IMG/VR virus record: IMGVR_UViG_3300007511_001023
Coordinates: 1 to 40,981 of that record
DNA from: a virus
Length of the DNA stretch: 40,981 nt
Strand: one strand, 5' to 3'
Shown here: positions 4,976-39,460 of the stretch, piece after piece
Numbering within the stretch: position 1 is the first letter of the stretch
Layout: each line of letters starts with the position of its first letter
Translations under genes and position numbers: made by a program
The notes under the pieces: model-generated
Databases searched by the model: none
The model's input: the letters and a program-made list of their open reading frames with translations, nothing else
What the model was told of the DNA's origin: nothing

Positions 4976-4983
4976 CAGGCAAT

Positions 4984-5013: not shown

Positions 5014-5036
5014 GCTAATTAAATAACTTTAAGTCT

Positions 5037-5776: not shown

Positions 5777-5781
5777 AAGAT

Positions 5782-7867: not shown

Positions 7868-7893
7868 TAATTTATAAATAAAATATTAAAAAT

Positions 7894-10161: not shown

Positions 10162-10180
10162 TTAAATAATAAATAAATAT

Positions 10181-11605
10181 ATGGCAATCAAAGAAGACAG
10201 ACTATTAGAAGCTCAAATGGCTTTAATGGCAATGCGATCAGAAGAAAAAAGAAAAAAGTCTTTGATAGAGAGAGGTGCCAGAACTTTAGCACCAAAAAGT
10301 GTAGAAGGTTTTGGTGCTACTTTAGGAGGAGCTTTAGCTACTAAATCTAAATTTTTTAAAGGTGCTCTTAAATCACAAGCTGATTTAGATGATATAACTT
10401 TGAAGTTAGTTAAAAAAATTGTTGAAAAAAGACGTAAAGGAGAAGACACTTCAAGATTAGAAGCTCAATATAGAAGAAATGTTGGGCAACAATTTAATTT
10501 AGAATCAATTATTCCTGAAACTCAAAAATCAGCTAAACAAATTGTCGGAGAAGGTTTAGGGGTTCTTGGAACAGTTGCATTGGGAGCTAAGCCTTCTAAA
10601 TCATTAGCAAAACGATTAGCTTTTGGAACTGTTTATGGAGCTGGTGCTGGAGCTAAAAGAGGATTAGAAGTAGAAGAAGAAGCTGAAAAAATAATTAAGA
10701 AAGCTGCTATTGGTGGTTTGATTGGTTTTGGAATTAGTGGTTCATTAGAACTAGCTGGGTATGGTTTAAAAAAATTAGCTAAAGGAAGATGGATGAGTAG
10801 AAGAACTGGCAATATTTATAATAAAGAATTACAACCAAAAACTAGTGAATTAGCAGGTCAGATTAAAAGAGAAGCTCAAACTACAGGTCAAAGAGTTCGT
10901 GATGTAGTTGATGCTAAAGGAAATCCAGTATATGTTGGTAAATATTCTACTTTGTTAGATAAATCAAAGAATGAAATTAAAAAACACGGACAATTACTTA
11001 GTGATAAAATTAAAGTATATGATGATATAACAATTAATAGAAGCGAAGCCACTAGAGGGATGTTTGCTAAATTAGGTGATGAATATGGTCATCTTGAACC
11101 AAGTCAACTTAAAACAGTAAATAAGTTAGTTAAAAAAATGCCTACTGAAATGAATATGTCAGGGGCATTAAAGAATAAAAGAATGTATGATGGTTTAATT
11201 TCTGATACTAGTTGGTCTAAAATTGTAGCTGATAAAGTTGATCCTCAAGTTGCTTTTGCTACTGAAGTTAAATATTTGTTAAGAGATAATTTAAGGAAAT
11301 TGATTAATGAAAAAACAGGAGATGCTGCTATCCAACAATTAAATTATAGGATGAGTACAGGAATGCAAGTAAGAGATTTAGTTTCTCAACAATTAGCTAT
11401 TAGAGCTAAACAAAAAATATCAGGTAGTGGTGGTATCTTTTGGAAAATGTATGGTAGAGTTATAGATGATGTTATATTTAATCCTGCTATTACTACAAGA
11501 TGGGCACAATTTCAAACTAGATTAGGTGAAAAAGTTGGACAAACTATACCAAGACAAGCTGCTAGAATAGGAGCTATTACAGAAGGAATAGAAGAATTAG
11601 AGTAA
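10181..11605 (+). CDS. Internal virion protein with glycine-rich hydrophobic segments
   Basis: The 474-residue product is basic and mostly helical. Two Gly/Ala-rich hydrophobic segments (about 119-156, IVGEGLGVLGTVALGA and LAFGTVYGAGAGA; about 173-193, AAIGGLIGFGISGSLELAG) resemble membrane-active glycine-zipper helices. Amphipathic helices flank them. Proteins of this kind in podoviruses are stored in the head and form a channel on ejection. It follows the larger ejection-type gene directly and is the last large gene before the terminator, consistent with that set. Confidence 0.5.
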   Translation: MAIKEDRLLEAQMALMAMRSEEKRKKSLIERGARTLAPKSVEGFGATLGGALATKSKFFKGALKSQADLDDITLKLVKKIVEKRRKGEDTSRLEAQYRRNVGQQFNLESIIPETQKSAKQIVGEGLGVLGTVALGAKPSKSLAKRLAFGTVYGAGAGAKRGLEVEEEAEKIIKKAAIGGLIGFGISGSLELAGYGLKKLAKGRWMSRRTGNIYNKELQPKTSELAGQIKREAQTTGQRVRDVVDAKGNPVYVGKYSTLLDKSKNEIKKHGQLLSDKIKVYDDITINRSEATRGMFAKLGDEYGHLEPSQLKTVNKLVKKMPTEMNMSGALKNKRMYDGLISDTSWSKIVADKVDPQVAFATEVKYLLRDNLRKLINEKTGDAAIQQLNYRMSTGMQVRDLVSQQLAIRAKQKISGSGGIFWKMYGRVIDDVIFNPAITTRWAQFQTRLGEKVGQTIPRQAARIGAITEGIEELE

Positions 11606-25381: not shown

Positions 25382-25949
25382 AAGCTTGTGGAGTTGTTCT
25401 TTATAGGATATAATAGAGTTGTAATTAACTTAAAACAATTCTATGAGAAAATGTCCAAAGTGTGGAGAAAATATAAAGAACAAAAAAGCGAAAACTTGTT
25501 GGGCGTGTTATGTCCGCTATCGTCCAATACCTAAAACAGCCTTTAAAAAAGGACAATTAAACGGGGATAAACATCCTGGTTGGAAAGGTGGAATGATCAT
25601 TTATTGGAGAAAGCAAGCGCTGAAAAGAGATGATTATACCTGTAAAAACTGTGGTTTAAGAGAGCCTGAAATAATGGATGTGGCTCACTTAAAACCAATA
25701 AATGGTAATAAGAATAGAAGGTATACGGTTCAAGATTTAAATAATCTTATTACTCTTTGTCCTAATTGTCATAGAAGATTTGACAAGGGCTTAATAGAAG
25801 ATACTGCTCATCTAAAATCCCGCTAAAACGGCGAACCCTAAGAACGCCGTGCTAGCAGAAGCAATGACCGCGTTTAGGTCGCTTCGGGCAAGTGTAGAGA
25901 CTTTACACGGGACTCTCCGAAAGGAGATGAAGACAAAGTCCAATAATAG
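25382..25949 (+). other. Group I self-splicing intron in the capsid gene
   Basis: The 3' part has a complete catalytic core: P3 TCCCG (25818-25822) with CGGGA (25908-25912); a P4-P6 region with ACGGCG...CGCCGT around AACCCTAAGA; P7 GACTTT (25899-25904) with AAAGTC (25935-25940); P8 CTCC-GAAA-GGAG (25915-25926). A P2-like stem AGAGTTGT/ACAATTCT lies near the 5' end. The exon ends in U and the intron in G (25949), as required. Removal restores the capsid frame (PKMS|GILEAIS). The exact P1 pairing is not resolved. Confidence 0.88.
25443..25826 (+). CDS. HNH homing endonuclease inside the intron
   Basis: The 127-residue product begins with a zinc ribbon (MRKCPKCGENI ... TCWACYVRY), then the linker HPGWKGG typical of intron HNH enzymes. 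The HNH domain follows: YTCKNCG, MDVAHLKPI (the DxAH equivalent of the first His), LNNLITLCPNCHRRFDKG (the central N and last H with its C-x-x-C zinc site). It would cut intronless capsid alleles and copy the intron. Its 3' end overlaps the P3 strand of the intron core, and its frame differs from the capsid exon. Confidence 0.88.
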   Translation: MRKCPKCGENIKNKKAKTCWACYVRYRPIPKTAFKKGQLNGDKHPGWKGGMIIYWRKQALKRDDYTCKNCGLREPEIMDVAHLKPINGNKNRRYTVQDLNNLITLCPNCHRRFDKGLIEDTAHLKSR

Positions 25950-26435
25950 GGTATCTTAGAAGCTATTTCTAAAGCTTCTAATTATTCCGCACAAACATCA
26001 GGTACAGCTTTGGTAGCGACTATCATTCAAGCTATGCACATGGACAATTATGATGATAGTAATGGTGATGTAGCAACTGATATGTTCTTGAGTTCATACT
26101 TAAAGAATGCAGTTGATACACAGACAAGTTCAAACACCAAGTATGTAATGGCTAATGAAAAGAAAGTTGTTGATGCAATGAGTGTATATGAAACTGGTTT
26201 CGGTATGTTGAAAGTTCACGTCCACAGATATCTTTATCAATCAACTGACAGTTATGGTAGGGTTCTCCTTGCCAGACCTGAGAAGTTGAAGATTGCTTAT
26301 CTTGAAAAACCACGTATTGATACTGGTCTATCAAGAAGCGGTGATTATGATTCGAGAGCTGTGGTTGGTAAACTTTGCTTAGAGGTACGAAACCAGGATT
26401 CTCATGTATACCATGAAGGATTCTTCAACGGATAA
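25950..26435 (+). CDS. Major capsid protein, exon 2
   Basis: The exon starts GGT-ATC (GILEAISKASNYSAQTSG) and continues for 161 codons to the stop. Features common to the SU10-type capsid C-terminal half: FLSSYLKNAVD, NEKKVVDAMSVYETGFGML (E-loop/A-domain strands) and VHRYLYQSTDSYGRVLLARPE then a final EVRNQDSHVYHEGF. Taken alone this part has no good ATG near its beginning (only a TTG at 26010), which also indicates it is an exon rather than a gene. Confidence 0.82.
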   Translation, partial: GILEAISKASNYSAQTSGTALVATIIQAMHMDNYDDSNGDVATDMFLSSYLKNAVDTQTSSNTKYVMANEKKVVDAMSVYETGFGMLKVHVHRYLYQSTDSYGRVLLARPEKLKIAYLEKPRIDTGLSRSGDYDSRAVVGKLCLEVRNQDSHVYHEGFFNG

Positions 26436-26822: not shown

Positions 26823-27079
26823 AGTGTAAACAGTGTGGTGACTGTTGCAAAAAAGTATATTTTCCATTATTCGATAGAGATCATGCCGAGTGGGCTTTGT
26901 ATCATGGGTTTAGATGTTTTACTATCGAAGGTACTGGAGAGTATAGAGTGATGATTGAGAGAAGATGTAAGAAATTACAGGATAATAAATGTATAATTTA
27001 TGATAAACGACCAATGATGTGTAAAGCATATACTTGTGAAGCTGTAAAAGATAAATATTTTAAAGAAATATTCTTATGA
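26819..27079 (+). CDS. YkgJ-type cysteine-cluster protein, 86 aa
   Basis: The sequence MKCKQCGDCCKKVYFPL gives C-x-x-C-G-x-C-C. RRCKKLQDNKCIIYDKRPMMCKAYTCE follows in pieces: C-x-x-L, C-I-I-Y-D-x-R-P, C-x-x-Y-x-C. This is the UPF0153/YkgJ family, thought to bind a metal or iron-sulfur centre; function unproved. It overlaps both neighbours (ATGA with the next). First gene of the sugar island and co-transcribed with it. Confidence 0.75.
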   Translation: MKCKQCGDCCKKVYFPLFDRDHAEWALYHGFRCFTIEGTGEYRVMIERRCKKLQDNKCIIYDKRPMMCKAYTCEAVKDKYFKEIFL

Positions 27080-29388
27080 AGTTATCATTATGTATGATTG
27101 TTAAGCCTAGCAATGAGGAAGCAGAGCTTTTAGATAGAGCGCTTGAGAGTTGCGCTAAGTATATGGATGAAATATGTATTACTCAGGCTGGTGAGAAGCC
27201 AAATAAAAAAGTTAGTGAAGTAATTTTGAAATATGGCGGTAGTGAGTCGTTCTTTCGGTGGCGGAAGGACTTTGCTGCCGCCAGAAATTATAATTTTAAA
27301 CAGGCTACAGGCGATTTTATATTCTGGATAGATTCTGATGATGTAGTAAGGAATGTTAAAAAGTTAAAGGAAGTTATTACTCAAATGAATCCGTCAGATA
27401 GGTATATCATGATGGAATATTTGTATGATTTTGATGAGAATAATAGTTGTATTGTAAAGCATAAAAAGATAAGGGTAATTAAAAACGATGGATCGTTTAA
27501 ATGGGAAGGTAAATTACATGAGGATTTAGTTACCAATATTCAAATGGAAGGTAAGTACACTGGAGATATTGAGATACTGCATTTATTAGATAAAGAAATG
27601 ATGGATGAAAGAATTGAAAGGAATATTCAAATATCTAAACAAGCTGTAGAAGAAACTGATGATCCAAGAGATTGGTTCAATTATGCTAATAGCCTTAAGA
27701 TGGGTAAGAGATATGAGCAGGCTAACGAAACTTATAAAAAATTTATTGAATTATCAAAGTCTGATGATGAAAAATATTTGGCATATCTACGCATCGCTGA
27801 GAATTATTACCATCTTGATGATATTGACCATGCTTATGAGTATTGTCTTTATTGTATTGGATTGAGACCATGGTATCCTGATGTATATACTGATTTGGGT
27901 TATTATTCATTTATGAAGGAGAAGTATGAACATGCTAAAACTTTCCTTCTTATGGGTTTATCTTTTCCTGTTCCTGAAGCTAGTCTTGTTCAGAACCCAC
28001 GTGATTACTCCCTTAATCCGTTAGAATTATTAGCTAAAGTATATTTTAAACTAGGTAAGTTTGAAGAAGCAGCTAAGACTATAGAGGAGTATTTGAAATA
28101 TAGGCCTGATGATAAAGGAATGAAAGAAGTTTATGAAAAGTTAAAGAAGGAAACAGATAGGTTAAAGATTATAGATGAGTATTTGGCTAAGTTAAAAAAT
28201 GTAATAGATAAGAATAAGATTAAAGCTATTTTAGATAAGATTCCAAAAGAGTTGCAAGATCATCCAAAAGTTTGTCATGTTAGAAATATTCATTTTATAA
28301 AGAAAGAGTCATCAGGCAAGGACATTACATTTTATTGTTCAACTACAGCAGAGGAATGGAGTCCTGAATCTGTAAAGAAAGGGATAGGTGGAGCAGAAGA
28401 AGCTGTGATTAATTTAGCTCAAAAATGGGCTGATATGGGTTGGAATGTTACGGTATATAATAATTGTGGTCATAAAGCGAAGAAGTTTGATGGAGTTACT
28501 TATAAGCCATTTTGGATGTGGAATTATAGGGATAAAACTGATATTACGATTATGTGGAGACATCCTTTTGCAGCAGATTATCCGATTAATACAGATAAGC
28601 TATATTTAGATGTACATGATTGTTTACCCCCAGAAGAGTTCTTGGAGAATAGATTAAAGCGAATAGATAAGATATTTGTTAAAACTAAGGCACATAGAAA
28701 ATTGTTTCCTAAGGTTCCTGATGATAAATTTTTAGTTATTCCTAATGGTTTAGATCCTAAACATTTTGAAAAAAAGCCTGATAGGATTCCTAAGCGTTGT
28801 ATTTGGACATCATCACCAGATAGGGGGTTAGAAGGTTTGATTGATATGTGGCCTGAGATTAAGAAGAAACATACAGAAGCAGAATTACATTTTTTCTATG
28901 GTTGGTATGTTTGGGATGAGATACATAAAGATAATGAAGAAATGAAAGAAGCAAAAGAAAGGATACTTCAGAAAATGGAAGACACAGAAGGTGTATTTAA
29001 TCATGATAGAGTAGGACATGAGGAAATTGCTCAAGAATATATGAAAGCAGATTTGTTTTTATATCCAACAGAGTTTTATGAGATTCATTGTATTAGTGCG
29101 GCTAAAGCGCAAGCTGCAGGAGCTATTCCTTTAACAACGAATTATGCAGCACTTGATGAAACAGTGCAATGGGGTGAGAAATTACCTATTAGTCAAGAAC
29201 CTAGACCTGGTCCAATATTTAATTTAGAAGAAAAACATAGGGGAGCATATATTGCTTTAGTAGATGGAGCATTGAAGAATAATATATCTATGGAAAATGG
29301 TTATAGGAAAGAGATGTCTAAATGGTCAATCAAAACTAATAATTGGGAATATATAGCAAATCAATGGGACAAAGAATTCAAAAGATGA
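27076..29388 (+). CDS. Bifunctional glycosyltransferase: GT2-like + TPR + GT4-like
   Basis: The 770-residue protein fuses three parts. Residues 1-230 form a GT-A (family 2-like) domain with SLCMIVKPSNEEAELLD, an ARNYNF helix and FIFWIDSDDV (D-S-D-D, 86-89). TPR-like helices follow at about 195-360 (DWFNYANSLKMGKRYEQAN; FKLGKFEEAAKTIEEYLK). Residues about 410-770 form a GT-B (family 4-like) domain: GIGGAEEAVINLAQKW, KFLVIPNGLD, WTSSPDRGLEGL, then FYEIHCISAAKAQAAG, the usual E-x7-E acceptor/donor region in altered form. It probably adds two sugars, or one with a regulatory partner. Substrates unknown. Confidence 0.8.
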   Translation: MKLSLCMIVKPSNEEAELLDRALESCAKYMDEICITQAGEKPNKKVSEVILKYGGSESFFRWRKDFAAARNYNFKQATGDFIFWIDSDDVVRNVKKLKEVITQMNPSDRYIMMEYLYDFDENNSCIVKHKKIRVIKNDGSFKWEGKLHEDLVTNIQMEGKYTGDIEILHLLDKEMMDERIERNIQISKQAVEETDDPRDWFNYANSLKMGKRYEQANETYKKFIELSKSDDEKYLAYLRIAENYYHLDDIDHAYEYCLYCIGLRPWYPDVYTDLGYYSFMKEKYEHAKTFLLMGLSFPVPEASLVQNPRDYSLNPLELLAKVYFKLGKFEEAAKTIEEYLKYRPDDKGMKEVYEKLKKETDRLKIIDEYLAKLKNVIDKNKIKAILDKIPKELQDHPKVCHVRNIHFIKKESSGKDITFYCSTTAEEWSPESVKKGIGGAEEAVINLAQKWADMGWNVTVYNNCGHKAKKFDGVTYKPFWMWNYRDKTDITIMWRHPFAADYPINTDKLYLDVHDCLPPEEFLENRLKRIDKIFVKTKAHRKLFPKVPDDKFLVIPNGLDPKHFEKKPDRIPKRCIWTSSPDRGLEGLIDMWPEIKKKHTEAELHFFYGWYVWDEIHKDNEEMKEAKERILQKMEDTEGVFNHDRVGHEEIAQEYMKADLFLYPTEFYEIHCISAAKAQAAGAIPLTTNYAALDETVQWGEKLPISQEPRPGPIFNLEEKHRGAYIALVDGALKNNISMENGYRKEMSKWSIKTNNWEYIANQWDKEFKR

Positions 29389-30494
29389 TTCCAATATTCT
29401 GGCCTAATCTTTATAGAAAAGAATGGATTCAGGAATTAGATAAAATATTTAAAACTAGGTGGATAGGACAAGGACCTGTAGTTGATAAGTTTGAGAAAGA
29501 ATTTGGAAAGAAGTTTGGATACAAGAATTGTCTTGCTGTAAATTCTGGAACGTCAGCTCTTGAACTTGCTTATCATATGATTGGTTTTAAAGAAGGTGAT
29601 GAAGTTATTACACCAGTTTTAACCTGTACCGCTACTAATGTTTGGTTCTTAAGAAACAAAGTTAATATCGTATTCGCTGATATTAAATCAAATACATTAA
29701 CAATTAATCCATTTAGTGTTGGTAGAAAGATTACCCATAAGACGAAAGCAATAGTAGCTACCACATTAGGAGGAATGCCGATAGATGAAGAAATTTTCGA
29801 GTTGGGTCGTAAGAACGGAATTCCTGTTATTGTCGATGCTTGCCAGTCCCTTGGAGTGGCGGAAAGTCAAGGAGACTATATCTGCTATTCTTTTCAAGCA
29901 ATAAAACATTTTACAACTGGGGATGGTGGAATGTTGGTTTGTAAAAGAAAGAAAGATTATAAACGAGCCAAAAAACTTAGATGGTTTGGAATAGATAGAG
30001 AGGCAAAGATTAGAGCTAACTGGAAGCCATATAAGAAACGAGAAATGACCATGGATATAGAAGAACCTGGTTTTAAATATCATATGAATGATATAGCAGC
30101 TATTTTAGGTTTGGTAGGTTTAAGAAATTCAGATAAAGCATTAGCATATAGACGGAAAATAGCAAAGTATTATGATAAGCATCTTAAATTTCATAGAGTA
30201 ATGCCAGACTTCTATTTTAAGGGCATTTCAGGCGGTTCATATTGGCTTTACGGCGTTTTAGTGAACAATCGGGATAAAGTAGCTAAAAAGCTAGAAAAAG
30301 CGGGAATAGAGACAAATATGGCACATTTACGTAATGATATTTTTAAATGTTTTGGTGGCAAGCGTTTAGATTTACTTGTTATGAATTCTATTGAAGATTT
30401 ATATTTATATTTGCCAATTAATACAAAGATGAATATGGCAGATGTAAAAAAAGTAGTAAAAGAATTTAACAAATGTTTACTAAAGAAGATTTAA
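29385..30494 (+). CDS. DegT/DnrJ/EryC1/StrS-type PLP aminotransferase
   Basis: The 369-residue product has the family order: WIGQGPVVDKFEKEF, LAVNSGTSALELAYHM (cofactor phosphate loop), GDEVITPVLTCTATNVWFL, VIVDACQSLG (PLP-binding Asp), YSFQAIKHFTTGDGGML (the expected Schiff-base Lys in QAIKH), then a C-terminal domain with FKYHMNDIAAILG. These enzymes transaminate keto-sugar nucleotides to make amino sugars. The start at 29385 is chosen for its ATGA overlap with the previous stop. It suggests an amino-deoxy sugar in the glycan. Confidence 0.85.
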   Translation: MIPIFWPNLYRKEWIQELDKIFKTRWIGQGPVVDKFEKEFGKKFGYKNCLAVNSGTSALELAYHMIGFKEGDEVITPVLTCTATNVWFLRNKVNIVFADIKSNTLTINPFSVGRKITHKTKAIVATTLGGMPIDEEIFELGRKNGIPVIVDACQSLGVAESQGDYICYSFQAIKHFTTGDGGMLVCKRKKDYKRAKKLRWFGIDREAKIRANWKPYKKREMTMDIEEPGFKYHMNDIAAILGLVGLRNSDKALAYRRKIAKYYDKHLKFHRVMPDFYFKGISGGSYWLYGVLVNNRDKVAKKLEKAGIETNMAHLRNDIFKCFGGKRLDLLVMNSIEDLYLYLPINTKMNMADVKKVVKEFNKCLLKKI

Positions 30495-31387
30495 ATAAAT
30501 ATTCAACGAAGGAGTTAAAGAAATTATATAAAGAGCATTATGATGACTTGATAACTAGACGTGTAATTGATGATATGATTCATGAGCGGGAGATTAATGA
30601 TTCGTTTTTAGTAAAAAAACATGGGCTTACACAGGAACAGATTGATGAAAAAGAACGGATTGAGAAGCTTATACAGCGTCCTTTAAAAAAGGATAAGAGT
30701 ATTAAGAGAGTTGAGATATGTATTTTGGGTTGGGAGATGCCAAAAGTTGAAGCAGAATGCTTGAAAAGAATTATTGAGAAAACAAAACATCCTTATAAAA
30801 TAACTTATTGGGATAATCGTCCTGATTCATATAAAGGATGTAATACAGCAAAGATTTGGAATAAGTTAATAGAACAAGCAACATGTGAATATGTGTTAAT
30901 CATGGATACAGATGCGTTTGTAGAAACAGAAGGTTGGCTTGGAAAGTTAGTAGATGCTTTTGAAAGTAAAAAGAATACTGCTATTGTTGCGCCTTCTTCA
31001 GAGTCTGGAGCTTGCTTAGTACAGCAGGAGTATGCAAGGACTAAGACGTTTATGGAAATAGAAGGTCATGTATCTGGATATTGTTGGATGACTTCAAAAA
31101 AGATGTTTAAAAAGATTGGTTCCTTTGATGAGAGATATTATGTTTGGGGGCAGGATAGTGATTGGATGAATAGAATACTTGCACTTAAATATCCTATATT
31201 AGTTCATCAAGGAGTGTTAGTACGGCATGGGAAAGGAGGAGAGAAGTTTAGTTTATCTACGACAGAGGCTAAAAAGAGATACAGGTTTAGTTGGGCAGAA
31301 GATGCTCATTACGCAAATTTATTAACGCTTAAGAAACGAGCAGAGTATAATCAAGGAGAATTTAAGCATGCAGAGTGGCGAATATGA
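30473..31387 (+). CDS. Glycosyltransferase family 2-like, with N-terminal helical extension
   Basis: The first ~75 residues are helical and charged (DLNKYSTKELKKLYKEHYDD). A GT-A domain follows: VEICILGWEMPKVEAECLKR, YWDNRPDSYKG, EYVLIMDTDAFVETEGWLGKL (D-T-D), HVSGYCWMTSKKMFKKIGSFDE ('G(F/Y)CW(M/L)...F..IG.FDE'), then WGQDSDWMNRI. The arrangement is that of glycan-adding GT2 enzymes. It overlaps both neighbours by about 20 bases. Donor and acceptor unknown. Confidence 0.8.
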   Translation: MFTKEDLNKYSTKELKKLYKEHYDDLITRRVIDDMIHEREINDSFLVKKHGLTQEQIDEKERIEKLIQRPLKKDKSIKRVEICILGWEMPKVEAECLKRIIEKTKHPYKITYWDNRPDSYKGCNTAKIWNKLIEQATCEYVLIMDTDAFVETEGWLGKLVDAFESKKNTAIVAPSSESGACLVQQEYARTKTFMEIEGHVSGYCWMTSKKMFKKIGSFDERYYVWGQDSDWMNRILALKYPILVHQGVLVRHGKGGEKFSLSTTEAKKRYRFSWAEDAHYANLLTLKKRAEYNQGEFKHAEWRI

Positions 31388-32372
31388 TAGTCCAAAACAT
31401 TTTGTAGAAAAATATCCAAAGATTGCCTGTATAATGGTAACTCATGTGAATAAAGAAGGATTTACAGGTAAGGGATATAGAGCGTTTGATATTAAACCAG
31501 AATATAAAAGATTTAGAGAGCTTATTATTGAATCAATTAGATTTACCTGGGCTTGCTTTGATCATTATGAAGCAGGCGTAGATTATGAATTAATTATAGT
31601 AGACAATGCTTCACCTAATAAAAAGTTTCAAAAGATTTTGGAAACGTGTCCATACAAAGTTATCCACAGAGAAAATAAAGGGTATAGTTACGGAGGTTAT
31701 AAGCATGCTTGGGAAGAGTTGGGTGATAAGTACGATTATTATTTATTCTTTGAGCAAGATTGGGTGCCTTCTAAAGATGGATGGCTTGCTGAATTACTTT
31801 TAAAGTTTCATGAGGATAAGAAGGTTGGTATGGTAGGAAATTGTATGGAACATAGATCATATCCTACAGGAATTCCTAAAGAGCAGTGGAATGCAGGACA
31901 ATGGACATCAGGAACGCATATGGCTAGAGTTTGTCCAGGCAGAGAATGGATGTGTAATTTAGATGGAGAATATCATTTCACATCTTCACGTATTTTAAAA
32001 CAAGTTGATGAGATAGCAGGTGGATTGATGGTATTTAAGTGTCATCCTGAACATGAAGGTGTTTCCCCTAGCGTTAATGAATTAGCTTTTCAACAGCCGA
32101 TATTAGAATTAGGTTATAGATTAGAATCGTTTAATGATGGTAAGCATATATTTACACATGGAGCGTCTCGTAGGAACAGGAATCCAAAGCATAAAGGATT
32201 GCCAATTACAGAACTTGCTCCTATGATTAATGGTTATGTTAAAGATTCAATTAATGATAGGGCTATTAGGAAACATTTTGCCTGGTATCCCGTTAAAATA
32301 GGTTTTTATGTCAAGGATAAAAAGACTAAGAAAGTTATTCCTAATAGCGGGAATGCACAGGTCGGGAAGTAG
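31368..32372 (+). CDS. Glycosyltransferase family 2-like
   Basis: The 334-residue product has IACIMVTHVNKEGFTG, DYELIIVDNASPNKKFQ, VIHRENKGYSYGGYKHAW (the 'N-x-G' nucleotide region) and YYLFFEQDWVPSKDGW (E-Q-D in place of D-x-D), followed by an atypical C-terminal part of about 170 residues with ASRRNRNPKHKG. An E-x-D variant is found in some GT2 proteins. The sulfotransferase gene starts inside its 3' end (65-base overlap), so the two are tightly coupled. Confidence 0.75.
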   Translation: MQSGEYDSPKHFVEKYPKIACIMVTHVNKEGFTGKGYRAFDIKPEYKRFRELIIESIRFTWACFDHYEAGVDYELIIVDNASPNKKFQKILETCPYKVIHRENKGYSYGGYKHAWEELGDKYDYYLFFEQDWVPSKDGWLAELLLKFHEDKKVGMVGNCMEHRSYPTGIPKEQWNAGQWTSGTHMARVCPGREWMCNLDGEYHFTSSRILKQVDEIAGGLMVFKCHPEHEGVSPSVNELAFQQPILELGYRLESFNDGKHIFTHGASRRNRNPKHKGLPITELAPMINGYVKDSINDRAIRKHFAWYPVKIGFYVKDKKTKKVIPNSGNAQVGK

Positions 32373-32964
32373 TTTAGTAGCAAAGATATTTGATGAAATA
32401 GGATTTTGGATAGGTGGTGATAGAATGGGGCCTGATGGTGCTAATCCAGATGGATTTTATGAGAGTTGGAATGTTGTTAGGATGAATACGCATATTCTAA
32501 TGAATTCTAAGGGAGACTGGAATAGACCGCCTAAGATACCAGTAGAAAAAGGAGATTTTGATAAACAGATTAAGGAGACTATAAAGAATAATGTAAATGA
32601 TTTTTGTGCTTTAAAAGATAATAGATTTGCTTTTACCCTACCAGCTTGGGAGAAACACTTAGAAGATTTTAAGTTAGTTATAGTGGATAGAGATAAAGAT
32701 GCTGTTATAAAATCATTAGATAGAACTCATAAGATGTTGTTTCAAGAAAGTATAAGGAATGATGAATATTATGGTTGGTTGTATGATGAACATTATAAAC
32801 GATTAAATAAATATGCTAAGAAATATCCAACACTTAGAGTAAAGTATGAGAATTTCTTTAAAGAGCCTGGCAAAGAGTTTGAAAAGATTATAAATTTTAT
32901 TGAGTTTCCTGTTAATCCAGGGAAGTTATTAAAGTGTATTAATAAAGAATCTAAACATTTTTAG
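32308..32964 (+). CDS. Sulfotransferase (PAPS-dependent, putative)
   Basis: The 218-residue product begins LFLIAGMHRSGSSLVAKIF: the 5'-phosphosulfate-binding loop of the sulfotransferase superfamily (G-x-x-R-(S/T)-G-(S/T)-(S/T)). FKLVIVDRDKDAVIKSLDRT is the 3'-phosphate-binding strand and helix (R/D-x-x-x-x-x-x-S). LRVKYENFFKEPGKEFEKI gives the usual 'V.YE.....P...' end. It would transfer sulfate from PAPS onto a sugar hydroxyl (or protein). The APS kinase further downstream can supply PAPS. It has unusually long overlap with the preceding gene; no alternative start retains the loop. Confidence 0.8.
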   Translation: MSRIKRLRKLFLIAGMHRSGSSLVAKIFDEIGFWIGGDRMGPDGANPDGFYESWNVVRMNTHILMNSKGDWNRPPKIPVEKGDFDKQIKETIKNNVNDFCALKDNRFAFTLPAWEKHLEDFKLVIVDRDKDAVIKSLDRTHKMLFQESIRNDEYYGWLYDEHYKRLNKYAKKYPTLRVKYENFFKEPGKEFEKIINFIEFPVNPGKLLKCINKESKHF

Positions 32965-32965
32965 T

Positions 32966-33463
32966 ATGAGAAAGTTAATGTTTAATATCGGGTGTGGAAG
33001 ATTGCAGAAAGTTTCTACACCTGAAGTTGAGTGGATAAATATAGATAAGTTTAATTTAAAAGAAGAAAACCCAAAAGCTAGGTTTGTTCAAGCAGATATT
33101 ACTAAGGATATGCCGTTTAAAGGAGGTGAGGCTAGTCATATAGAAGCCTTTGCTATGCTTGGGCAGATTGTAGATAATGATGATTTTAAAACTGTTATGA
33201 ATGAATTTTGGAGATTATTATTGCCAGGTGGGACTTTAAGAATATATGTTCCGCATAAAGATTTTGGACATGCTTATATTGATCCGTTTAATAGAAGATA
33301 TTTTAATGAATTAAGTTTTAGTTCATTTCATTATAATAGTCCGCAATACAAGGATCATTTATCATATTATGGATTTAAACCTTGGGATGTAAAAGAAGTT
33401 AAGACTAATAAACAAGGATTTATAGATGTAATAATGGAAAAATATGAGAGAAAAGATAATTAG
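32966..33463 (+). CDS. Methyltransferase-like protein (class I fold), 165 aa
   Basis: MFNIGCGRLQKVSTPEVEW carries the SAM-binding G-x-G-(x)-x loop, FVQADITKDMPF the acidic strand 2/3 region, and VMNEFWRLLLPGGTLRIYVPH the 'E..R.L.PGG.l.i' strand of type 11 SAM methyltransferases. It lacks a clear second substrate domain. A paralogue lies at 36145. It may methylate a sugar, or be a structural relative without activity. Confidence 0.7.
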   Translation: MRKLMFNIGCGRLQKVSTPEVEWINIDKFNLKEENPKARFVQADITKDMPFKGGEASHIEAFAMLGQIVDNDDFKTVMNEFWRLLLPGGTLRIYVPHKDFGHAYIDPFNRRYFNELSFSSFHYNSPQYKDHLSYYGFKPWDVKEVKTNKQGFIDVIMEKYERKDN

Positions 33464-34073
33464 AGATTTTCATCAGTTATGGAGGAAGGAATATTTAAAT
33501 GATAAATTAGAGTTTTTAGGTGTACAGGTATGTAAAAGTCCGATGGATCTATGGATATATCAAGAAATTATGTGGGAGTTAAAACCTGATTTAGTTATAG
33601 AATGTGGAACATACAAAGGTGGTGGAGCATATTATTTAGCTTCACTAATGGATTTGATTGGTAAGGGTGAAATTGTAACTATTGATATGAAAAAAGAGGA
33701 AGTTCCTAAACATAAACGGATTAAATATATTATAGGTTCTACAGATGAGGAAGAAATTGTAGAACAAATAGAAAAGTTAGCTGAAGGAAAGAAATGTGTA
33801 TTAGTAATTTTGGATTCTAATCATTCTCGTAATTATGTTTTAAAAGAATTGAATATTTATAATAAGTTTGTTACGCCTGGGAGTTACATGGTTGTAGAGG
33901 ATAGTGATTTGGGTGGACATCCTACGGATATTTCTACATGGCCAGAAGATTTAAGGGGACCACATGAAGCAATAGAAGCGTTCATGAAAGAAAATGATGA
34001 GTTTATTATAGATAAGCAAAGAGAAAAGTTTTTAGTCGGTGTAATTAAAGATGGATATTTAAAAAAAATATGA
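33444..34073 (+). CDS. CmcI/rhamnosyl O-methyltransferase-like protein
   Basis: The 209-residue product has LVIECGTYKGGGAYYLASLM (SAM-binding loop with E/G-x-G), GEIVTIDMKKEEV (D strand), CVLVILDSNHSRNYVLKEL (metal-type 'D-S-x-H' motif) and YMVVEDSDLGGHP then GPHEAIEAFM. This matches the cephalosporin hydroxylase/CmcI family (PF04989-type), whose members include sugar O-methyltransferases such as rhamnosyl O-methyltransferases. It likely modifies a glycan. Overlaps its neighbours by 20 and 4 bases. Confidence 0.8.
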   Translation: MREKIIRDFHQLWRKEYLNDKLEFLGVQVCKSPMDLWIYQEIMWELKPDLVIECGTYKGGGAYYLASLMDLIGKGEIVTIDMKKEEVPKHKRIKYIIGSTDEEEIVEQIEKLAEGKKCVLVILDSNHSRNYVLKELNIYNKFVTPGSYMVVEDSDLGGHPTDISTWPEDLRGPHEAIEAFMKENDEFIIDKQREKFLVGVIKDGYLKKI

Positions 34074-34570
34074 AAGCAGAATATGGTGATATCCAACATC
34101 CATTTTTAGATACTCCCTCAACTGTTGCTGATGTTATAAGGCCTTTAATTGAAGGAAAAGTAATTTGTGATGTTGGTTGTAGAGTAGGTGTGTTTATGGA
34201 TTCATTAGCGAAGTATGCTAAAGAAGTTGTGGGAATAGAAAAAGATAGAAAAGCATATCAAATAATAACGGCAAGCAAAGAATATAATATTATATTTGGT
34301 GATGCTAGAAGATGTAGGATACCTGAAGCTGATGTATATTATGTATGGGTTGAAATGCCACATAGTGAGATGTTAATTGATATTTATAAGCGGATTAAAC
34401 ATAAAACAGTTATATTTGGAAGTTACTTTCGATTTCGTGAACATTTACCATTTTTAGATAAAGGGATAACAATAGATGTTCCTAAGCAAATTACTGAAAG
34501 TGGATGGGAAAAAGTATTTCAATTAACTATAATGAAACCATATGAAAATAGCAGTAACAGTAGCGATTGA
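34070..34570 (+). CDS. SAM-dependent methyltransferase-like protein, 166 aa
   Basis: VICDVGCRVGVFMDSLAKYAKEVVGIEKDRKAY in pieces shows the SAM loop (D-V-G-C-R-x-G) followed by the ribose-binding acidic end of strand 2 (G-I-E). IIFGDARRCRIPEADVYYVW provides strand 4. The remaining part is short. It is smaller than most methyltransferases, so its acceptor-binding region may come from a partner. Starts with ATGA overlap. Confidence 0.6.
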   Translation: MKAEYGDIQHPFLDTPSTVADVIRPLIEGKVICDVGCRVGVFMDSLAKYAKEVVGIEKDRKAYQIITASKEYNIIFGDARRCRIPEADVYYVWVEMPHSEMLIDIYKRIKHKTVIFGSYFRFREHLPFLDKGITIDVPKQITESGWEKVFQLTIMKPYENSSNSSD

Positions 34571-35471
34571 AACAGAGCCAACAGCTATAGATCACATTGG
34601 TGTTAAGCAAGGTTTAGATTGGCTTGGATGGGATTATTTACTTGTTGATCCTATTAGAAATAGAATAGATGATGTTGTAAAACAAATTATTGATTACAAG
34701 CCAGATGTTATATTGCATTACATGGATAATATGCTTAGAGGAAGAGCGCCTGAAAAGATAGCAGATGGATGCAATGCTAAACAAGTATTTTGGGAAATGG
34801 ATTATCGTCCTTTAAAATCTACATTAGAAAATAGTTATGATGGACAATGGGGTGCTTGGAGAGAGCAAATGCAGTATATGGATAGAATATTTTTATCAAA
34901 TAAAGGTCAAATGGCAGATTGGGAACATTTCTTTAGAGTTCCAACATCTTTTTTGCCTCATGGTTGTTATGTTCCTAAAAAGTTAGTTTTTAAAAAGAAA
35001 TTAAGTCATCCTTGTTTATTTATGGGTGGTATGAATTCAGCTCCTCCATTTAATGAAAGAAAACAGTTTATAGAAAAGATTATGGAATTAGTAGATATAA
35101 CGCATATAACTGATAGTGGGAGAGAGAAACGTAATCAGAATTGGAGTGATATGCCTTCACTTTATTATTCATCAGATACTGTATTAGATATTTCACACTT
35201 TTGGGATAATCCTGGTTATTGTTCTGGTAGATACTTTTATACAGCAGGTTTAGGTGGTTGTTCAATAACAAAACGTTTTCCTGATTGTGAAAAGTTATAT
35301 CCACAAGGAACTAAATTATATTTTGATACACCTGAAGATGCAGTAAGTTTAATTACTTATTATCAGAAACATAAAAAAGAAAGAGAAGCGGTTAAGCAAA
35401 GAGCGTATGAATATAACAAAAAACATCATAATTTTAAAAAACGTTTTGAGGAAATAGTAAGATGGCTATAA
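34542..35471 (+). CDS. Glycosyltransferase, GT-B fold (CgeB/family 1-like)
   Basis: The 309-residue product has an N-terminal Rossmann domain (MKIAVTVAIETEPTA, DVILHYMDNML) and a C-terminal domain with TSFLPHGCYVPK, PCLFMGGMNSAPPFNERKQF, then SDTVLDISHFWDNPGYCSGR and YFYTAGLGGCSITKRF. The 'SxR(xFE)xxAxGx' portion matches the glycosyltransferase family 1-like/CgeB-type C domain in which the nucleotide-sugar binds. An HAD gene overlaps its 3' end by ten bases. Sugar specificity unknown. Confidence 0.7.
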   Translation: MKIAVTVAIETEPTAIDHIGVKQGLDWLGWDYLLVDPIRNRIDDVVKQIIDYKPDVILHYMDNMLRGRAPEKIADGCNAKQVFWEMDYRPLKSTLENSYDGQWGAWREQMQYMDRIFLSNKGQMADWEHFFRVPTSFLPHGCYVPKKLVFKKKLSHPCLFMGGMNSAPPFNERKQFIEKIMELVDITHITDSGREKRNQNWSDMPSLYYSSDTVLDISHFWDNPGYCSGRYFYTAGLGGCSITKRFPDCEKLYPQGTKLYFDTPEDAVSLITYYQKHKKEREAVKQRAYEYNKKHHNFKKRFEEIVRWL

Positions 35472-35788
35472 AAACTATTTGTTTAGATTTTGATGGTGTA
35501 ATTCATAAGTATAGTAAAAAATATGATGATGGAAGTATTTATGATGTTCTGATGGAAGGAGCTTTAGAAGGAATAATTAAATTGCAGAAAGATGGTTATA
35601 AGATAATTATAAGCTCAGCTAGACCTAATTGGGATGAAATAAAAGATTGGCTTTTTGATCAAGGATTACCAGAAAAGAATTTAGAAAAGATTGAAATAAC
35701 TGACAAGAAACCAAAAGCTTTTGCTTATGTGGATGATAGAGCAATTAGGTTTATTAATTGGAAAGATTTATTAAATTATTTTATTTAA
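35462..35788 (+). CDS. HAD-family phosphatase, 108 aa
   Basis: TICLDFDGVIHKY holds the catalytic D-x-D (D9, D11). IIISSARPNWDEI gives the motif II Ser (SSAR), ITDKKPKAFAYVDDRA provides the motif III Lys and motif IV acidic pair (D-D). It is a small cap-less HAD, as in phage and sugar-phosphate clusters. Probable substrate: a sugar phosphate or other pathway phosphate, or a nucleotide 3'-phosphate (e.g. PAP recycling after sulfation). The latter is speculation. Confidence 0.78.
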   Translation: MAIKTICLDFDGVIHKYSKKYDDGSIYDVLMEGALEGIIKLQKDGYKIIISSARPNWDEIKDWLFDQGLPEKNLEKIEITDKKPKAFAYVDDRAIRFINWKDLLNYFI

Positions 35789-35789
35789 G

Positions 35790-36155
35790 ATGGCTATTAC
35801 ATGGTTTTTTGGAAATAGTGGGGCAGGAAAAACTACATTGTCTGATAGTATCAAAACAGACGATATTCGCTCTCCTTATTATAACGCAATTAGATTGGAC
35901 GGAGATAAGATGAGGGGAGTTTGGCGAGATTTAGATTTATCAAAAAAAAGTAGATATGAACAGAATCGCAGAGTAGCTAGATTAGCACAAATGTTTGATA
36001 AGATGGGTTTTAATGTAATTGTCTCAGTAATATGTCCTTATGCAGAATTAAGAAAGGAAATTAAAGAACAGATTAATTGTAAATTTATATATATAGAAGG
36101 CGGAAAGGAAGGCAAGAATTATCCTTTCGATAAACCAAACTTATATGAAACTTAA
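35790..36155 (+). CDS. cysC: Adenylylsulfate (APS) kinase, short form
   Basis: The P-loop FFGNSGAGKTTLSDS (8-16) is followed by AIRLDGDKMRGVW (the APS kinase 'LDGDxxR' motif) and RYEQNRRVARLAQMFDKMGFNVIVSVICPY ('NxRRvaevAxxfxxxG...SxxxPY' substrate region). These pieces identify CysC. The enzyme turns APS into PAPS. The usual family has about 170-200 residues; this is 121, with a short end (GGKEGKNYPFDKPNLYE) that still resembles the family tail ('Y...P.PdL...'). The gene begins two bases after the HAD stop and its end overlaps a methyltransferase-like gene. Confidence 0.82.
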   Translation: MAITWFFGNSGAGKTTLSDSIKTDDIRSPYYNAIRLDGDKMRGVWRDLDLSKKSRYEQNRRVARLAQMFDKMGFNVIVSVICPYAELRKEIKEQINCKFIYIEGGKEGKNYPFDKPNLYET

Positions 36156-36591
36156 TATCGGATGTGGGCGTTTACCACAGGACGGTTATAAGAATATAGA
36201 TATTTCTAAAGAAGCAGCGGCTGATGAGTTTTATGATGTATGTGAGGGAATTAAAGAGAAAGATAATAGTGTAGAAGAAGTATTTTCTGGTTGTATGTTA
36301 GAACAAATTGAATCAAATAAAGATTTTGTGTTTGTGATGAATGAGATATGGCGTGTTTTAAAACCAAATGGAATGTTTGCTGGATATGTTCCAACACCGC
36401 ATCAGAATGTTATTTATCAAGATCCTATGGATAAGAGATTTTTCAGGATGGAAACCTTTGATTACTTTGATTCAGATAAACATCATTGGAAGGAATTTGG
36501 CAGTATATATGGTTTTAAACCTTGGCACAGCATAGAATTAAACCTAGCAGATAATGGAATATTACATTTTAAAATGAAACCTCAAAAATGA
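36145..36591 (+). CDS. Methyltransferase-like protein, 148 aa (paralogue of 32966-33463)
   Basis: MKLNIGCGRLPQDGYKNID supplies the SAM-type loop, SVEEVFSGCMLEQIES the middle acidic segment, and VMNEIWRVLKPNGMFAGYVP the 'NEIWRVLKPxG' strand. YGFKPWHSIELN parallels YGFKPWDVKEVK in the gene at 32966, so the two arose by duplication. Function: probable sugar or small-molecule methylation, or an inactive relative. ATGA overlap with the sulfoquinovose synthase gene. Confidence 0.68.
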   Translation: MKLNIGCGRLPQDGYKNIDISKEAAADEFYDVCEGIKEKDNSVEEVFSGCMLEQIESNKDFVFVMNEIWRVLKPNGMFAGYVPTPHQNVIYQDPMDKRFFRMETFDYFDSDKHHWKEFGSIYGFKPWHSIELNLADNGILHFKMKPQK

Positions 36592-37619
36592 AAGTATTAA
36601 TAGCAGGACAAGATGGATATTTAGGTTGGGCTTTAACACAGTATCTTAAGGAGAAAGGTCATAAGGTTACAGGTTTTGATAACTTTTCAAGAAGAGATAT
36701 TGCAAGAAGTTTAGTACCACTCGGAAATAGAGAAATAACGCCATTACAGTTACACAATTTTGATTTTTATCACAATTTAAAGGAAATGATACATGGAGTG
36801 GATGCGATTGTACATTTAGCAGAAATTCCTTCTGCGCCGTATAGTATGGATGGTCCTTTTAAAAGTTATGTTACTCAATGGAATAATGTTTTAGGAACTT
36901 TAAATTTATTATGGGCAATGAAAGAGAATAATCCAGATGCGCATTTGGTAAAATTAGGTTCTATGGGTGAATTTGGCATTCAAGGAGATAGAGTGCCAGA
37001 AAATGATTGGTCATATCCTAAAAAGCCTGGTAGTTTCTATCATGCTTCAAAAGTACAAGATACTGTTAATATAGAATTTGCTTGTAGGAATTGGGATTTT
37101 AGAAGTACAGATATTATGCAGGGTGTAGTCTACGGAACATATAAGGGAACACGATTTGATTATGATGAGGAGTTTGGCACAGCCATTAATAGATTTGTTG
37201 TGCAAGCTATAGCTGGAGAGCCTTTAACTGTGTATGGTAAAGGAGCTCAAAAGCGGGGTTTTTTGCCGATTTTAGACAGTTTGCAGTGTTTGACCCTTAT
37301 TTTGGAGAATCCACCTGAGAAGGGCGTTTATAGGGCATATAATCAATTCTGTGAGGTATATGAGCTGAATCAGCTAGCAAAAACAGTTCAAAAGGTAGGA
37401 AATGAGTTTAAATTGAATGTAAAGGTAAATAATATTAAAAATCCTAGAAATGAGAAAGAAGAACATGCTTATGAAGTTGAGCATGAAGCATTAAAGAAGT
37501 TAGGTTATAAAACAAGTATTTCTATGGAAGATATGTTAAGGCAAATGTTTAAAGATTTAATTCCTTATAAAGATAAGATTAATAAAGATAAACTAATGCC
37601 CAAAATTCTATGGAAATGA
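36588..37619 (+). CDS. sqd1: UDP-sulfoquinovose synthase (SQD1-like)
   Basis: The 343-residue SDR protein has a GQDGYLGW NAD loop (7-14) and SQD1-type signatures: VDAIVHLAEIPSAPYSMDG ('H-x-A-E-x-P-S-A-P-Y-S-M'), QWNNVLGTLNLLWA, VKLGSMGEFG, YPKKPGSFYHASKVQDT, DIMQGVVYGT, RFDYDEEFGTAINRF, TVYGKGAQKRGFL and NPRNEKEEHAYEVEHEAL. These match UDP-sulfoquinovose synthases, which join UDP-glucose and sulfite. Y151 and K155 are present; the usual active-site Thr is Ser125 here. The length is close to bacterial SqdB. A neighbouring reductase gene (next) would make the sulfite. Confidence 0.88.
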   Translation: MKVLIAGQDGYLGWALTQYLKEKGHKVTGFDNFSRRDIARSLVPLGNREITPLQLHNFDFYHNLKEMIHGVDAIVHLAEIPSAPYSMDGPFKSYVTQWNNVLGTLNLLWAMKENNPDAHLVKLGSMGEFGIQGDRVPENDWSYPKKPGSFYHASKVQDTVNIEFACRNWDFRSTDIMQGVVYGTYKGTRFDYDEEFGTAINRFVVQAIAGEPLTVYGKGAQKRGFLPILDSLQCLTLILENPPEKGVYRAYNQFCEVYELNQLAKTVQKVGNEFKLNVKVNNIKNPRNEKEEHAYEVEHEALKKLGYKTSISMEDMLRQMFKDLIPYKDKINKDKLMPKILWK

Positions 37620-38236
37620 CATTTTTACAAAAAATCAAAGAAGCGAAAGATTTAATTAGAGAAGCAGTTGAAAGGTACGGAGATAAACTTATACTCGCTT
37701 GTTCGTTTGGTAAAGATTCAATGGTACTTTTACATCTTGCTAAAAGTATTGAACCTAAAATTAAAGTATTTTCTGTGATGATGGATACAGAGTTTGAGAA
37801 CACTTATCAGTTTGCTAAAGAAATATCTGAAAATTGGAGATTAAGTTATAAGGAATATGTAGTTAAGAATAATCCTGATGATTGTTGTGGTAAGGCTAAA
37901 GTAGAAAAGACTAAGGAAGTTTTATCTGATTATGACGCTTGGCTCACAGGTGTTAGAAGTACAGAAGGAATTACTAGAAATAATTTTCATTATATAGAAG
38001 AAGATAAAACACCAGTTAAAATTAATCCTATATTAGAATTTACTGAAGCTGAGATTTGGAGATATCTTTCTTTATATGGAGTTAGTGTAAATAGAGAGTA
38101 TAAAAATGGTTATCGTTCTCTAGGTTGTAAGTTATGTTCAGCTAAAGAACAGCCTGGTGATAAAACTGAAAGAGAAGGTAGATGGCGTGGTACAAAAAAA
38201 CAAGGCGGAGAGTGTGGTATACATACAAAGATATGA
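37616..38236 (+). CDS. cysH: APS/PAPS reductase (CysH-type)
   Basis: The 206-residue product has the PP-loop SFGKDSMVLLHL, MDTEFENTYQF, DAWLTGVRSTEGITRNN, PVKINPILEFTEAEIWRYL and the C-terminal EREGRWRGTKKQGGECGIH. It carries CC at 90-91, C-x-x-C at 171-174 and C200 in the ECGIH motif. CC...CxxC ligates a 4Fe-4S cluster in APS-type reductases and ECG(L/I)H holds the catalytic Cys. It would release sulfite from APS (or PAPS), the sulfur donor for the enzyme encoded just upstream. The start at 37616 has ATGA overlap; 37610 is possible. Confidence 0.88.
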   Translation: MTFLQKIKEAKDLIREAVERYGDKLILACSFGKDSMVLLHLAKSIEPKIKVFSVMMDTEFENTYQFAKEISENWRLSYKEYVVKNNPDDCCGKAKVEKTKEVLSDYDAWLTGVRSTEGITRNNFHYIEEDKTPVKINPILEFTEAEIWRYLSLYGVSVNREYKNGYRSLGCKLCSAKEQPGDKTEREGRWRGTKKQGGECGIHTKI

Positions 38237-38442
38237 TAGAAAGAAGAAAAAGAACACTTTGTAAAACAATCGTTTGGAGAATCGTAGCTTCTTCAGCAAC
38301 AGCAATAATAGCTTTTATTGTTACAGGTGAATTTTCTATAGCATTGGGAATTGGCGTAATAGATATCTTTATAAAGTTAATAATTTATTATTTACATGAA
38401 AGAATATGGGACAAAATAAAATGGGGAAAAGTGTTTCGATAG
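38233..38442 (+). CDS. DUF2061 membrane protein, 69 aa
   Basis: KTIVWRIVASSATAIIAFIVTGE forms membrane helix 1, ALGIGVIDIFIKLIIYYLHERIWDKI helix 2 plus the conserved 'K-x-x-x-Y-Y-L-H-E-R-x-W' end. This is the DUF2061 pattern, a family often found next to or fused with sulfate-activation genes. It may help transport or retain a sulfur metabolite; unproved. The start at 38233 overlaps the CysH stop (ATGA); a 38182 start is less likely. Confidence 0.82.
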   Translation: MIERRKRTLCKTIVWRIVASSATAIIAFIVTGEFSIALGIGVIDIFIKLIIYYLHERIWDKIKWGKVFR

Positions 38443-39077
38443 TAATCCCCCACCTTATTCTGGATGATCAGATATATGATTTAGCAAAGAGTTGTTTAAA
38501 AAGTATAAAAGAATATACTTCTAATTATGAATTGATAAATATTGATAATGCTTCACCTGAAAGGAATGAATGGTTAAGAATGAACTCAGATATTTATGTT
38601 CATAATAAAAAGAATGTAGGTAATGGTCCTGGTTGGAATCAGGGTATTAAATTAGCTACTGGAGATTATATAGCATTTTGTGATAATGATATTTATGTGG
38701 AAGAAGGTTGGTTAGAAAAGTTAATAGAAATTTTAGAGGATAAGAAAGTTGGTATAGCTTTTCCAATGACTAAGTGTAAAGAAGAACCAGATTATAATTC
38801 TAAGTTAAGTGGGTTTTGTTGGGTTACTAGAAGAGATATTATAAATGAAATAGGTTTAATAGATGAAAAGTTCGGTATAGCTAATTTTGAAGATGTAGAT
38901 TATTTTAAGAGAGTTCAAAATGCTGGATACAAACTTAAGTGTGATGCACGGGTAAGAGTAGCGCATTATTCAAGAGCAACGTGTGATAAAGTACAGGAAG
39001 TTAAAGATATATTTGATAATAATGAGAAATATTTTTTACAAAAACATAATAGTGTTTATCCACATTTAGATATATGA
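38406..39077 (+). CDS. Glycosyltransferase family 2-like
   Basis: SVSIVIPHLILDDQIYDLAKS opens the GT-A fold. YELINIDNASPERNEW, NVGNGPGWNQGIKLATGDYIAFCDNDIYVEEGW (in pieces: N-x-G-x-x-x-x-x-N-x-G and D-N-D) and SGFCWVTRRDIINEIGLIDE with FEDVDYFKRVQ complete a typical family 2 enzyme. The D-N-D replaces D-x-D. An alternative start at 38421 (MGKSVSIV) would shorten the protein by five residues. Last gene of the sugar island; probably transfers one of its activated sugars. Confidence 0.82.
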   Translation: MGQNKMGKSVSIVIPHLILDDQIYDLAKSCLKSIKEYTSNYELINIDNASPERNEWLRMNSDIYVHNKKNVGNGPGWNQGIKLATGDYIAFCDNDIYVEEGWLEKLIEILEDKKVGIAFPMTKCKEEPDYNSKLSGFCWVTRRDIINEIGLIDEKFGIANFEDVDYFKRVQNAGYKLKCDARVRVAHYSRATCDKVQEVKDIFDNNEKYFLQKHNSVYPHLDI

Positions 39078-39460
39078 GCATTTTAGAACAAGCAGATGTT
39101 GTTGAAATAACATCAGAAGTTAAAGAAGAATTTAGTAAAATGGCAGAAAGTTTATCTGCTAAAGAAGATTTAAACGTATATTATCTTTTCCAATACTTTG
39201 ATTTACAGGGAGATGACGTGGTAGATAGGAATATTATGGGTAAAATAAAGGAAATATATGAGTGGATGCAGAGTAGGGGAGAGGGGCTTACGTCTATTAG
39301 GGATTTAGATATTCAGCTTGGAAAGCCTAATTATTTAACTAAATTAGATAAAATATTTACATATATTAAACTAGATAAAGATAAAAATAGAGCTATTCAA
39401 GAAGCAACTTTAATTCATAAGCAACAACAAAAATTACATGAGGATAGCCATTTTATATGA
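39074..39460 (+). CDS. Hypothetical protein before the fibre genes, 128 aa
   Basis: It begins at an ATGA overlap with the last glycosyltransferase. Product: MSILEQADVVEITSEVKEEF, a helical protein with YYLFQYFDLQGDDVVDRNIM, then IYEWMQSRGEGLTSIRDLDI. The pattern 'KIKEIYEWxxxxG.sl.DldxxlG' recalls small proteins encoded near phage fibre genes; no function known. It marks the passage from the glycan island back to virion genes. Confidence 0.5.
   Translation: MSILEQADVVEITSEVKEEFSKMAESLSAKEDLNVYYLFQYFDLQGDDVVDRNIMGKIKEIYEWMQSRGEGLTSIRDLDIQLGKPNYLTKLDKIFTYIKLDKDKNRAIQEATLIHKQQQKLHEDSHFI

Follow-up and report, generated by a model that had tools for sequence, protein, structure and literature searches.

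Why would a phage place a sulfur reductase gene directly behind a gene resembling that of a sulfosugar synthase? The question is raised by IMGVR_UViG_3300007511_001023, an IMG/VR virus contig whose positions 1 to 40,981 are called the window here. In this contig, an SQD1-like gene, a CysH gene and a DUF2061 gene are chained by consecutive ATGA overlaps within a glycan operon. On sequence evidence, we consider it rather likely that the phage encodes a sulfonate-transfer module, through which host adenosine 5'-phosphosulfate (APS) would be converted to sulfite, the sulfite built into uridine diphosphate (UDP)-sulfoquinovose or a close sulfo-sugar, and the sugar passed to a virion or surface glycan. 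An earlier note on this DNA had read four open reading frames (ORFs; CysC-like, SQD1-like, CysH and DUF2061) as a single overlapping sulfosugar cluster. All four ORFs are confirmed as intact frames on the same strand, and the four-base overlap reported between the SQD1-like and CysH genes is present as an ATGA. The overlapping cluster holds for SQD1-CysH-DUF2061 but has to be amended upstream, where a methyltransferase gene lies between the APS kinase-like and SQD1-like genes:

35790 to 36155, plus strand: APS kinase-like protein, 121 aa, C-terminal third (lid region) absent (APS_kinase profile positions 4-104 of 152)
36145 to 36591, plus strand: small methyltransferase (Methyltransf_11; 56% identity to its homologue in the related virus G018)
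36588 to 37619, plus strand: SQD1-like nucleotide-sugar enzyme of the Pro-type sister subfamily defined below, 343 aa (NF041015, PDB SQD1, AlphaFold fold match)
37616 to 38236, plus strand: CysH of the APS reductase type, 206 aa, carrying the iron-sulfur motif CC..CxxC and the catalytic motif ECGIH (profiles, motifs)
38233 to 38442, plus strand: DUF2061 small membrane protein (PF09834; ATGA overlap with the CysH stop)

The SQD1-like protein matches the UDP-sulfoquinovose synthase family NF041015 over the entire profile (1-384 of 384; 367.9 bits, E 5.6e-110), and the next family scores 58.5 bits. Among PDB sequences, SQD1 comes first with 267 bits, followed by another short-chain dehydrogenase/reductase (SDR) at 66 bits, and a best match to an unrelated SDR epimerase was not seen. 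An AlphaFold model built with 34 homologues as input had a predicted local distance difference test score of 91. The three top entries of a fold search with this model were all SQD1 (1qrr, 1i2b and 1i24; TM score 0.93 to 1qrr, best E 5.5e-43), and the next protein followed at 8.7e-22.

Point mutants of the homologue Agl3 are inactive at H95, R101, M145, Y182 and K186, and impaired at E147, Y148, S180 and T185 (PMC4388408). In alignment with SQD1, the window protein retains the catalytic Tyr182 and Lys186 and the equivalents of H95, M145, E147 and S180, while T145 is replaced by Ser and Y148 by Phe. The Arg101 position divides the 131 aligned homologues into a Pro-type (59 sequences, viral and cellular), to which the window protein belongs, and an Arg-type (72 sequences). 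In the tree, Arg-type sequences from cyanobacteria, a plant, Bacillota, Amycolatopsis and some viruses lie on one side of a branch with an SH-aLRT support of 88. The window protein falls inside a well-supported set of 21 viruses and one Nitrosotalea metagenome-assembled genome; the tree is a quick one with long branches, and the exact position of the protein within it is unsure. Two further viral groups have altered motifs. An Arg-type viral clade on a long branch (L041-L049) has GTMGVYG in place of GTMGEYG, with loss of Glu147, and its function may differ. A pair on a very long branch (L002, 8001-9053, and L038, 3077-4120) has GTAGEYP, with loss of the Met145 equivalent.

The CysH protein scores 118 bits with PAPS_reduct, 156.6 bits with NF002537 (cut-off 154) and 136.5 bits with TIGR00434 (cut-off 165.1). 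Chance cannot account for matches of the strength seen with the SQD1 and CysH families. The catalytic ECGxH motif is complete (E199, C200, G201, I202, H203), as are the 4Fe-4S cysteines (C90, C91 and C171xxC174), and the best solved-structure match is the APS reductase 2goy. The combination of CC...CxxC and ECGxH is the signature of 4Fe-4S APS reductases. The protein is predicted to be an intact 4Fe-4S APS reductase of the APS-using type. Across the aligned CysH proteins, ECGxH and CxxC were kept in all, and the CC pair in all but the odd one.

Viral scans with the single SQD1, CysH and CysC proteins returned 1, 0 and 0 loci, and alignment queries were used instead. Among the 49 other viral records that carry an SQD1-like gene, three, representing two distinct lineages, also have a CysH-family gene, which lay beside the SQD1-like gene in each; the neighbour searches used a hidden Markov model trained on viral sequences, so a very divergent CysH could be missed. 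In G018, CysH is directly upstream of SQD1, the order being swapped relative to the window, and in G010/G011 a CysH-DUF2061-SQD1 set is placed between terminase and portal. A third lineage (L165/G051) was found by a CysH-led scan and has CysH followed by an SQD1 gene broken by the contig end. The cellular case is a 0.7 Mb genome (L101/G076), in which CysH-SQD1 lies beside groEL and glycan genes. The reductase cysteines are intact in these pairs, and the suggestion that the two enzymes act in consecutive steps is supported.

By a rough estimate, a CysH gene placed at random among about 50 genes would be adjacent to SQD1 with a chance of ~4-6%, so that three viral and one cellular adjacent pairs are very unlikely to have arisen by chance. 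G018 is a distant relative of the window phage with collinear terminase, portal, capsid (64%) and glycan cassette, its CysH and SQD1 proteins are each ~49% identical to those of the window, and it was the only match when the glycosyltransferase at 34542-35471 was used as a probe. As the pair has been kept in G018 despite divergence and rearrangement, this comparison argues for selection acting on the pair. That the arrangement is a widespread operon of bacteria was rejected for the 80 nearest cellular SQD1 loci, of which one (L101) had CysH. Nor is SQD1 common in the phylum of that small genome, where 2 of 287 genomes gave a strong match. The module was carried by none of 20 capsid-relative records, many of them short.

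The glycan operon (27076-39460) starts behind the capsid gene and contains 17 genes with intergenic gaps of at most 1 nt. Its GC content is 32.0% versus 33.1% for the preceding 27 kb. The operon content includes a DegT aminotransferase, a CmcI-type O-methyltransferase, additional methyltransferases, at least five glycosyltransferases and a sulfotransferase, the last of which was absent from the earlier note:

27076 to 29388, plus strand: large glycosyltransferase with GT2, TPR and GT1 domains, 770 aa, first gene of the operon (Pfam, PHROG 13126)
29343 to 30494, plus strand: DegT-type sugar aminotransferase (Pfam DegT_DnrJ_EryC1, 228 bits)
30473 to 31387 and 31368 to 32372, plus strand: two GT2 glycosyltransferases (Pfam; homologues in G018)
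32308 to 32964, plus strand: sulfotransferase of the 3'-phosphoadenosine 5'-phosphosulfate (PAPS) type (Sulfotransfer_3 35.6 bits, cut-off 27; Sulfotransfer_1 33.4 bits, cut-off 22)
33444 to 34073, plus strand: CmcI-type sugar O-methyltransferase (RMNT_CmcI, 189 bits)
34542 to 35471, plus strand: glycosyltransferase (Glyco_trans_1_2; 59% identity to the G018 homologue)
38406 to 39077, plus strand: GT2 glycosyltransferase (Pfam; 44% identity to the G018 homologue)

Of 19 non-identical loci from capsid relatives, 18 have the large glycosyltransferase immediately after the capsid genes, and the contig of the 19th stops before that position. The site behind the capsid therefore looks like an old glycosylation locus in this group of viruses, the sulfur genes being a variable part of its cargo.

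From these genes we infer the following route. APS made by the host ATP sulfurylase would be reduced to sulfite by the phage 4Fe-4S CysH together with host thioredoxin or glutaredoxin. The SQD1-like enzyme, co-translated with CysH, would oxidise C4 of UDP-glucose using bound nicotinamide adenine dinucleotide, then eliminate water to give the 5,6-ene, add sulfite at C6 and re-reduce C4. The product would be UDP-sulfoquinovose or a close UDP-6-sulfo-sugar, from which an operon glycosyltransferase would transfer the sulfo-sugar onto the glycan. The glycan probably decorates the virion. This is favoured over a lipid destination on two grounds: a conserved glycosyltransferase follows the capsid gene, and none of the scanned proteins could be recognised as an exporter, a polymerase or an oligosaccharyltransferase. 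In a parallel branch, the APS kinase-like protein could supply PAPS to the sulfotransferase, which may add sulfate esters.

The APS kinase-like and DUF2061 genes had both been assigned to the sulfosugar steps, and neither assignment is upheld. The APS kinase ORF is present but truncated. The protein scores 69.2 bits with APS_kinase (cut-off 21.1) and 72.5 bits with TIGR00455, below the cut-off of 138.7; the P-loop (GNSGAGKTT) and DGD motif (LDGDKMR) are present. No APS kinase gene was found in the 49 other SQD1-bearing viral records. As the CC...CxxC reductase is predicted to use APS, sulfite would need no PAPS, and the protein fits PAPS supply for the sulfotransferase better than the sulfoquinovose route. 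The sulfotransferase passes the Pfam gathering score and has the RSGSS 5'-PAPS loop (AGMHRSGSSL). Sulfotransferase genes also lie near Pro-type SQD1 genes in L017/G015 and in a Desulfobulbaceae locus (L094, 7268-8221), where a high-scoring sulfotransferase (Sulfotransfer_3, 120 bits) comes after the Pro-type SQD1.

The DUF2061 protein scores 70.9 bits with PF09834 (cut-off 23.1). Its longest ORF is 38182-38442, and the ATG at 38233, which gives the 4-nt overlap with the CysH stop, is the likelier start. The gene is coupled to CysH in the window, in G011 and in L162. Since L162 lacks SQD1, DUF2061 appears to track CysH and not sulfoquinovose. As a marker of sulfate genes in cells DUF2061 was mostly rejected, with one of 30 Pseudomonadota loci lying near cys genes (L237, a CysH-CysC-DUF2061 operon). 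In one capsid relative (L201, 11783-11971), a DUF2061 gene lies behind the glycosyltransferase, with the contig ending soon after.

Several points weigh against the proposed pathway, which is least secure where the sugar's destination is concerned. The SQD1-like protein does not reach the curated NF041015 cut-off of 575 bits, a strict threshold reached by just one of 14 control genomes, though Synechococcus elongatus and Sulfolobus acidocaldarius are included. Arg101 of the EQRSAPYSM motif is Pro81 in the window protein (EIPSAPYSM), and the R101A mutant of Agl3 is inactive (PMC4388408), while the Pro-type subfamily carries Pro there throughout. In Arg-type sequences, Asp40 goes with Arg101 (68 of 69), whereas Pro-type sequences have Pro in place of Arg101 in 53 of 53 and do not show Asp40 among their listed residues. 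The Pro-type enzyme could on these grounds have ceased to be a sulfoquinovose synthase and act as a UDP-glucose 5,6-dehydratase or epimerase, or add a different nucleophile, with the sulfite used elsewhere. We regard this as unlikely, as the remaining critical residues are retained, and wherever the type could be read, CysH neighbours were seen with Pro-type genes alone; the same holds for sulfotransferase neighbours above cut-off, so that sulfur chemistry fits. Pro at this position is not a lesion, as it occurs in 59 of the 131 viral and cellular homologues, and the disappearance of Arg101 together with Asp40 suggests an ion or structural pair replaced as a unit and not a lost catalytic step. 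The window protein is thus placed in a mostly viral sister subfamily that probably works like UDP-sulfoquinovose synthase, and is not a proven member of that family; the SQD1-like identity stands on the full-length profile and the fold, but not as a canonical synthase.

The link to CysH must be regarded as optional, since 46 of the 49 other viral SQD1 records (many of them fragments) have no CysH on the contig, and close CysH relatives (L162 and L166) sit in glycan cassettes without SQD1. L162 (IMGVR 3300033149_001893, 3029-10870) encodes two NeuB-type synthases, a CMP-sugar cytidylyltransferase, a Polysacc_synt_2 dehydratase, a DegT aminotransferase, DUF2061 and CysH. As this NeuB/CMP-sugar cassette has CysH without SQD1, its sulfite may serve another sugar. 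CysH might instead be a general auxiliary metabolic gene that raises the cysteine and methionine supply of the host, its position beside SQD1 being accidental. Phage cysH genes are common: a set of 7,334 freshwater phage genomes contained 167 of them (PMC10914622), and others come from the Cariaco Basin (PMC7785012). They are usually interpreted in this way. We give this explanation a low probability, because the two genes are adjacent, or separated by DUF2061 alone, in all three other viral lineages that have both, as well as paired in one cellular genome, and because the nearest viral CysH relatives without SQD1 likewise lie in glycan-type gene sets. It is also quite improbable that the module serves sulfolipid synthesis, or a change of host lipids or of the host's surface, instead of the virion. 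SQD1 is known for its role in sulfolipid synthesis in plants and cyanobacteria, and DUF2061 is a small membrane protein. However, the operon holds an aminotransferase, O-methyltransferases and several glycosyltransferases, including the conserved one that follows the capsid, and the scan of the genes recognised neither an exporter nor an oligosaccharyltransferase. The sulfolipid outcome raised by the earlier note is unlikely from the operon content.

The contig carries terminase, SU10-type portal and SU10-type capsid genes and encodes an amidase endolysin, and a bacterial host is therefore likely. Phage GenBank records yielded only ordinary epimerases (~25% identity) and distant CysH proteins, and thus no cultured relative. 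A 7.1 kb contig (L186; IMGVR 3300008954_001339) has 100% identical structural proteins and represents the same virus in a separate record. A protein with F5/8 type C domains, of carbohydrate-binding type, is encoded close to the phage structural genes (1305-2543). The gene for the SU10-type major capsid protein is split into two parts, at 24947 to ~25388 and ~25990-26435; these form one continuous ORF in the relatives L188, L191, L194, L199 and L205. The interruption (25390-26000) holds an HNH endonuclease ORF (25443-25826) as well as a low-scoring match to the group I intron family (RF00028, 19.8 bits, E 0.013), and is likely a group I intron. Similar capsid interruptions were observed in G018, L189 and L192.

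The results suggest that some phages would build their own sulfonated sugars, beyond feeding host sulfur metabolism. The recurrent, translationally coupled CysH-SQD1 genes in glycan operons offer an alternative and testable reason for phage cysH, namely sulfite as a building block of sulfonated sugars. If this is true, phage sulfur genes would be structural and not metabolic, and sulfonates would join the chemistry of virion and surface glycans. The Pro-type also defines an enzyme subfamily in which a supposedly essential Arg101 is naturally replaced. A more far-reaching and rather doubtful possibility is that the Pro-type proteins form an enzyme subfamily of their own, centred on viruses, whose product from CysH-derived sulfite is a new sulfonated nucleotide sugar; used by phages together with a sulfotransferase, this subfamily would give virion glycans with both sulfonate and sulfate.

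Compared with SQD1 of Arabidopsis, Agl3 of Sulfolobus acidocaldarius and SqdB, the window protein shows full-length homology, ~38-43% identity to SQD1, the close fold match to 1qrr, the SDR triad and the H95 and M145 equivalents, but differs in the replacement of Arg101 and Asp40, its separate and mostly viral clade, its score below the NF041015 cut-off and the operon shared with CysH. The Agl3 N-glycan pathway likewise destines sulfoquinovose for protein glycans (PMC4388408); Agl3 is, however, cellular and has Arg101, whereas the window is from a bacteriophage, as indicated by its amidase endolysin, with its own CysH. Phages with cysC and cysH are widespread (PMC10914622), and their auxiliary metabolic genes belong to the same enzyme families (PMC10914622, PMC7785012), but the window CysH sits with a sugar enzyme of sulfite-consuming type in a glycan operon, and the window APS kinase is truncated. 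The earlier note was not aware of a described phage system that couples CysH to a sulfoquinovose synthase and glycosyltransferases. A putative UDP-sulfoquinovose synthase, not coupled to CysH, has already been reported in a Mu-like virus of the Cariaco Basin (PMC7785012), which shares a virus-encoded SQD1-like gene with the window. The main text of that study gives no CysH partner, sulfotransferase or coupled pathway, and its PAPS reductases were treated separately, as amino-acid metabolism (PMC7785012). No description of the coupled CysH-SQD1 pair or of the Pro-type subfamily was found in the literature searched. Viral sulfur genes, glycan cassettes and one putative viral UDP-sulfoquinovose synthase are thus known, and the coupling to CysH and the Pro-type subfamily appear to be new.

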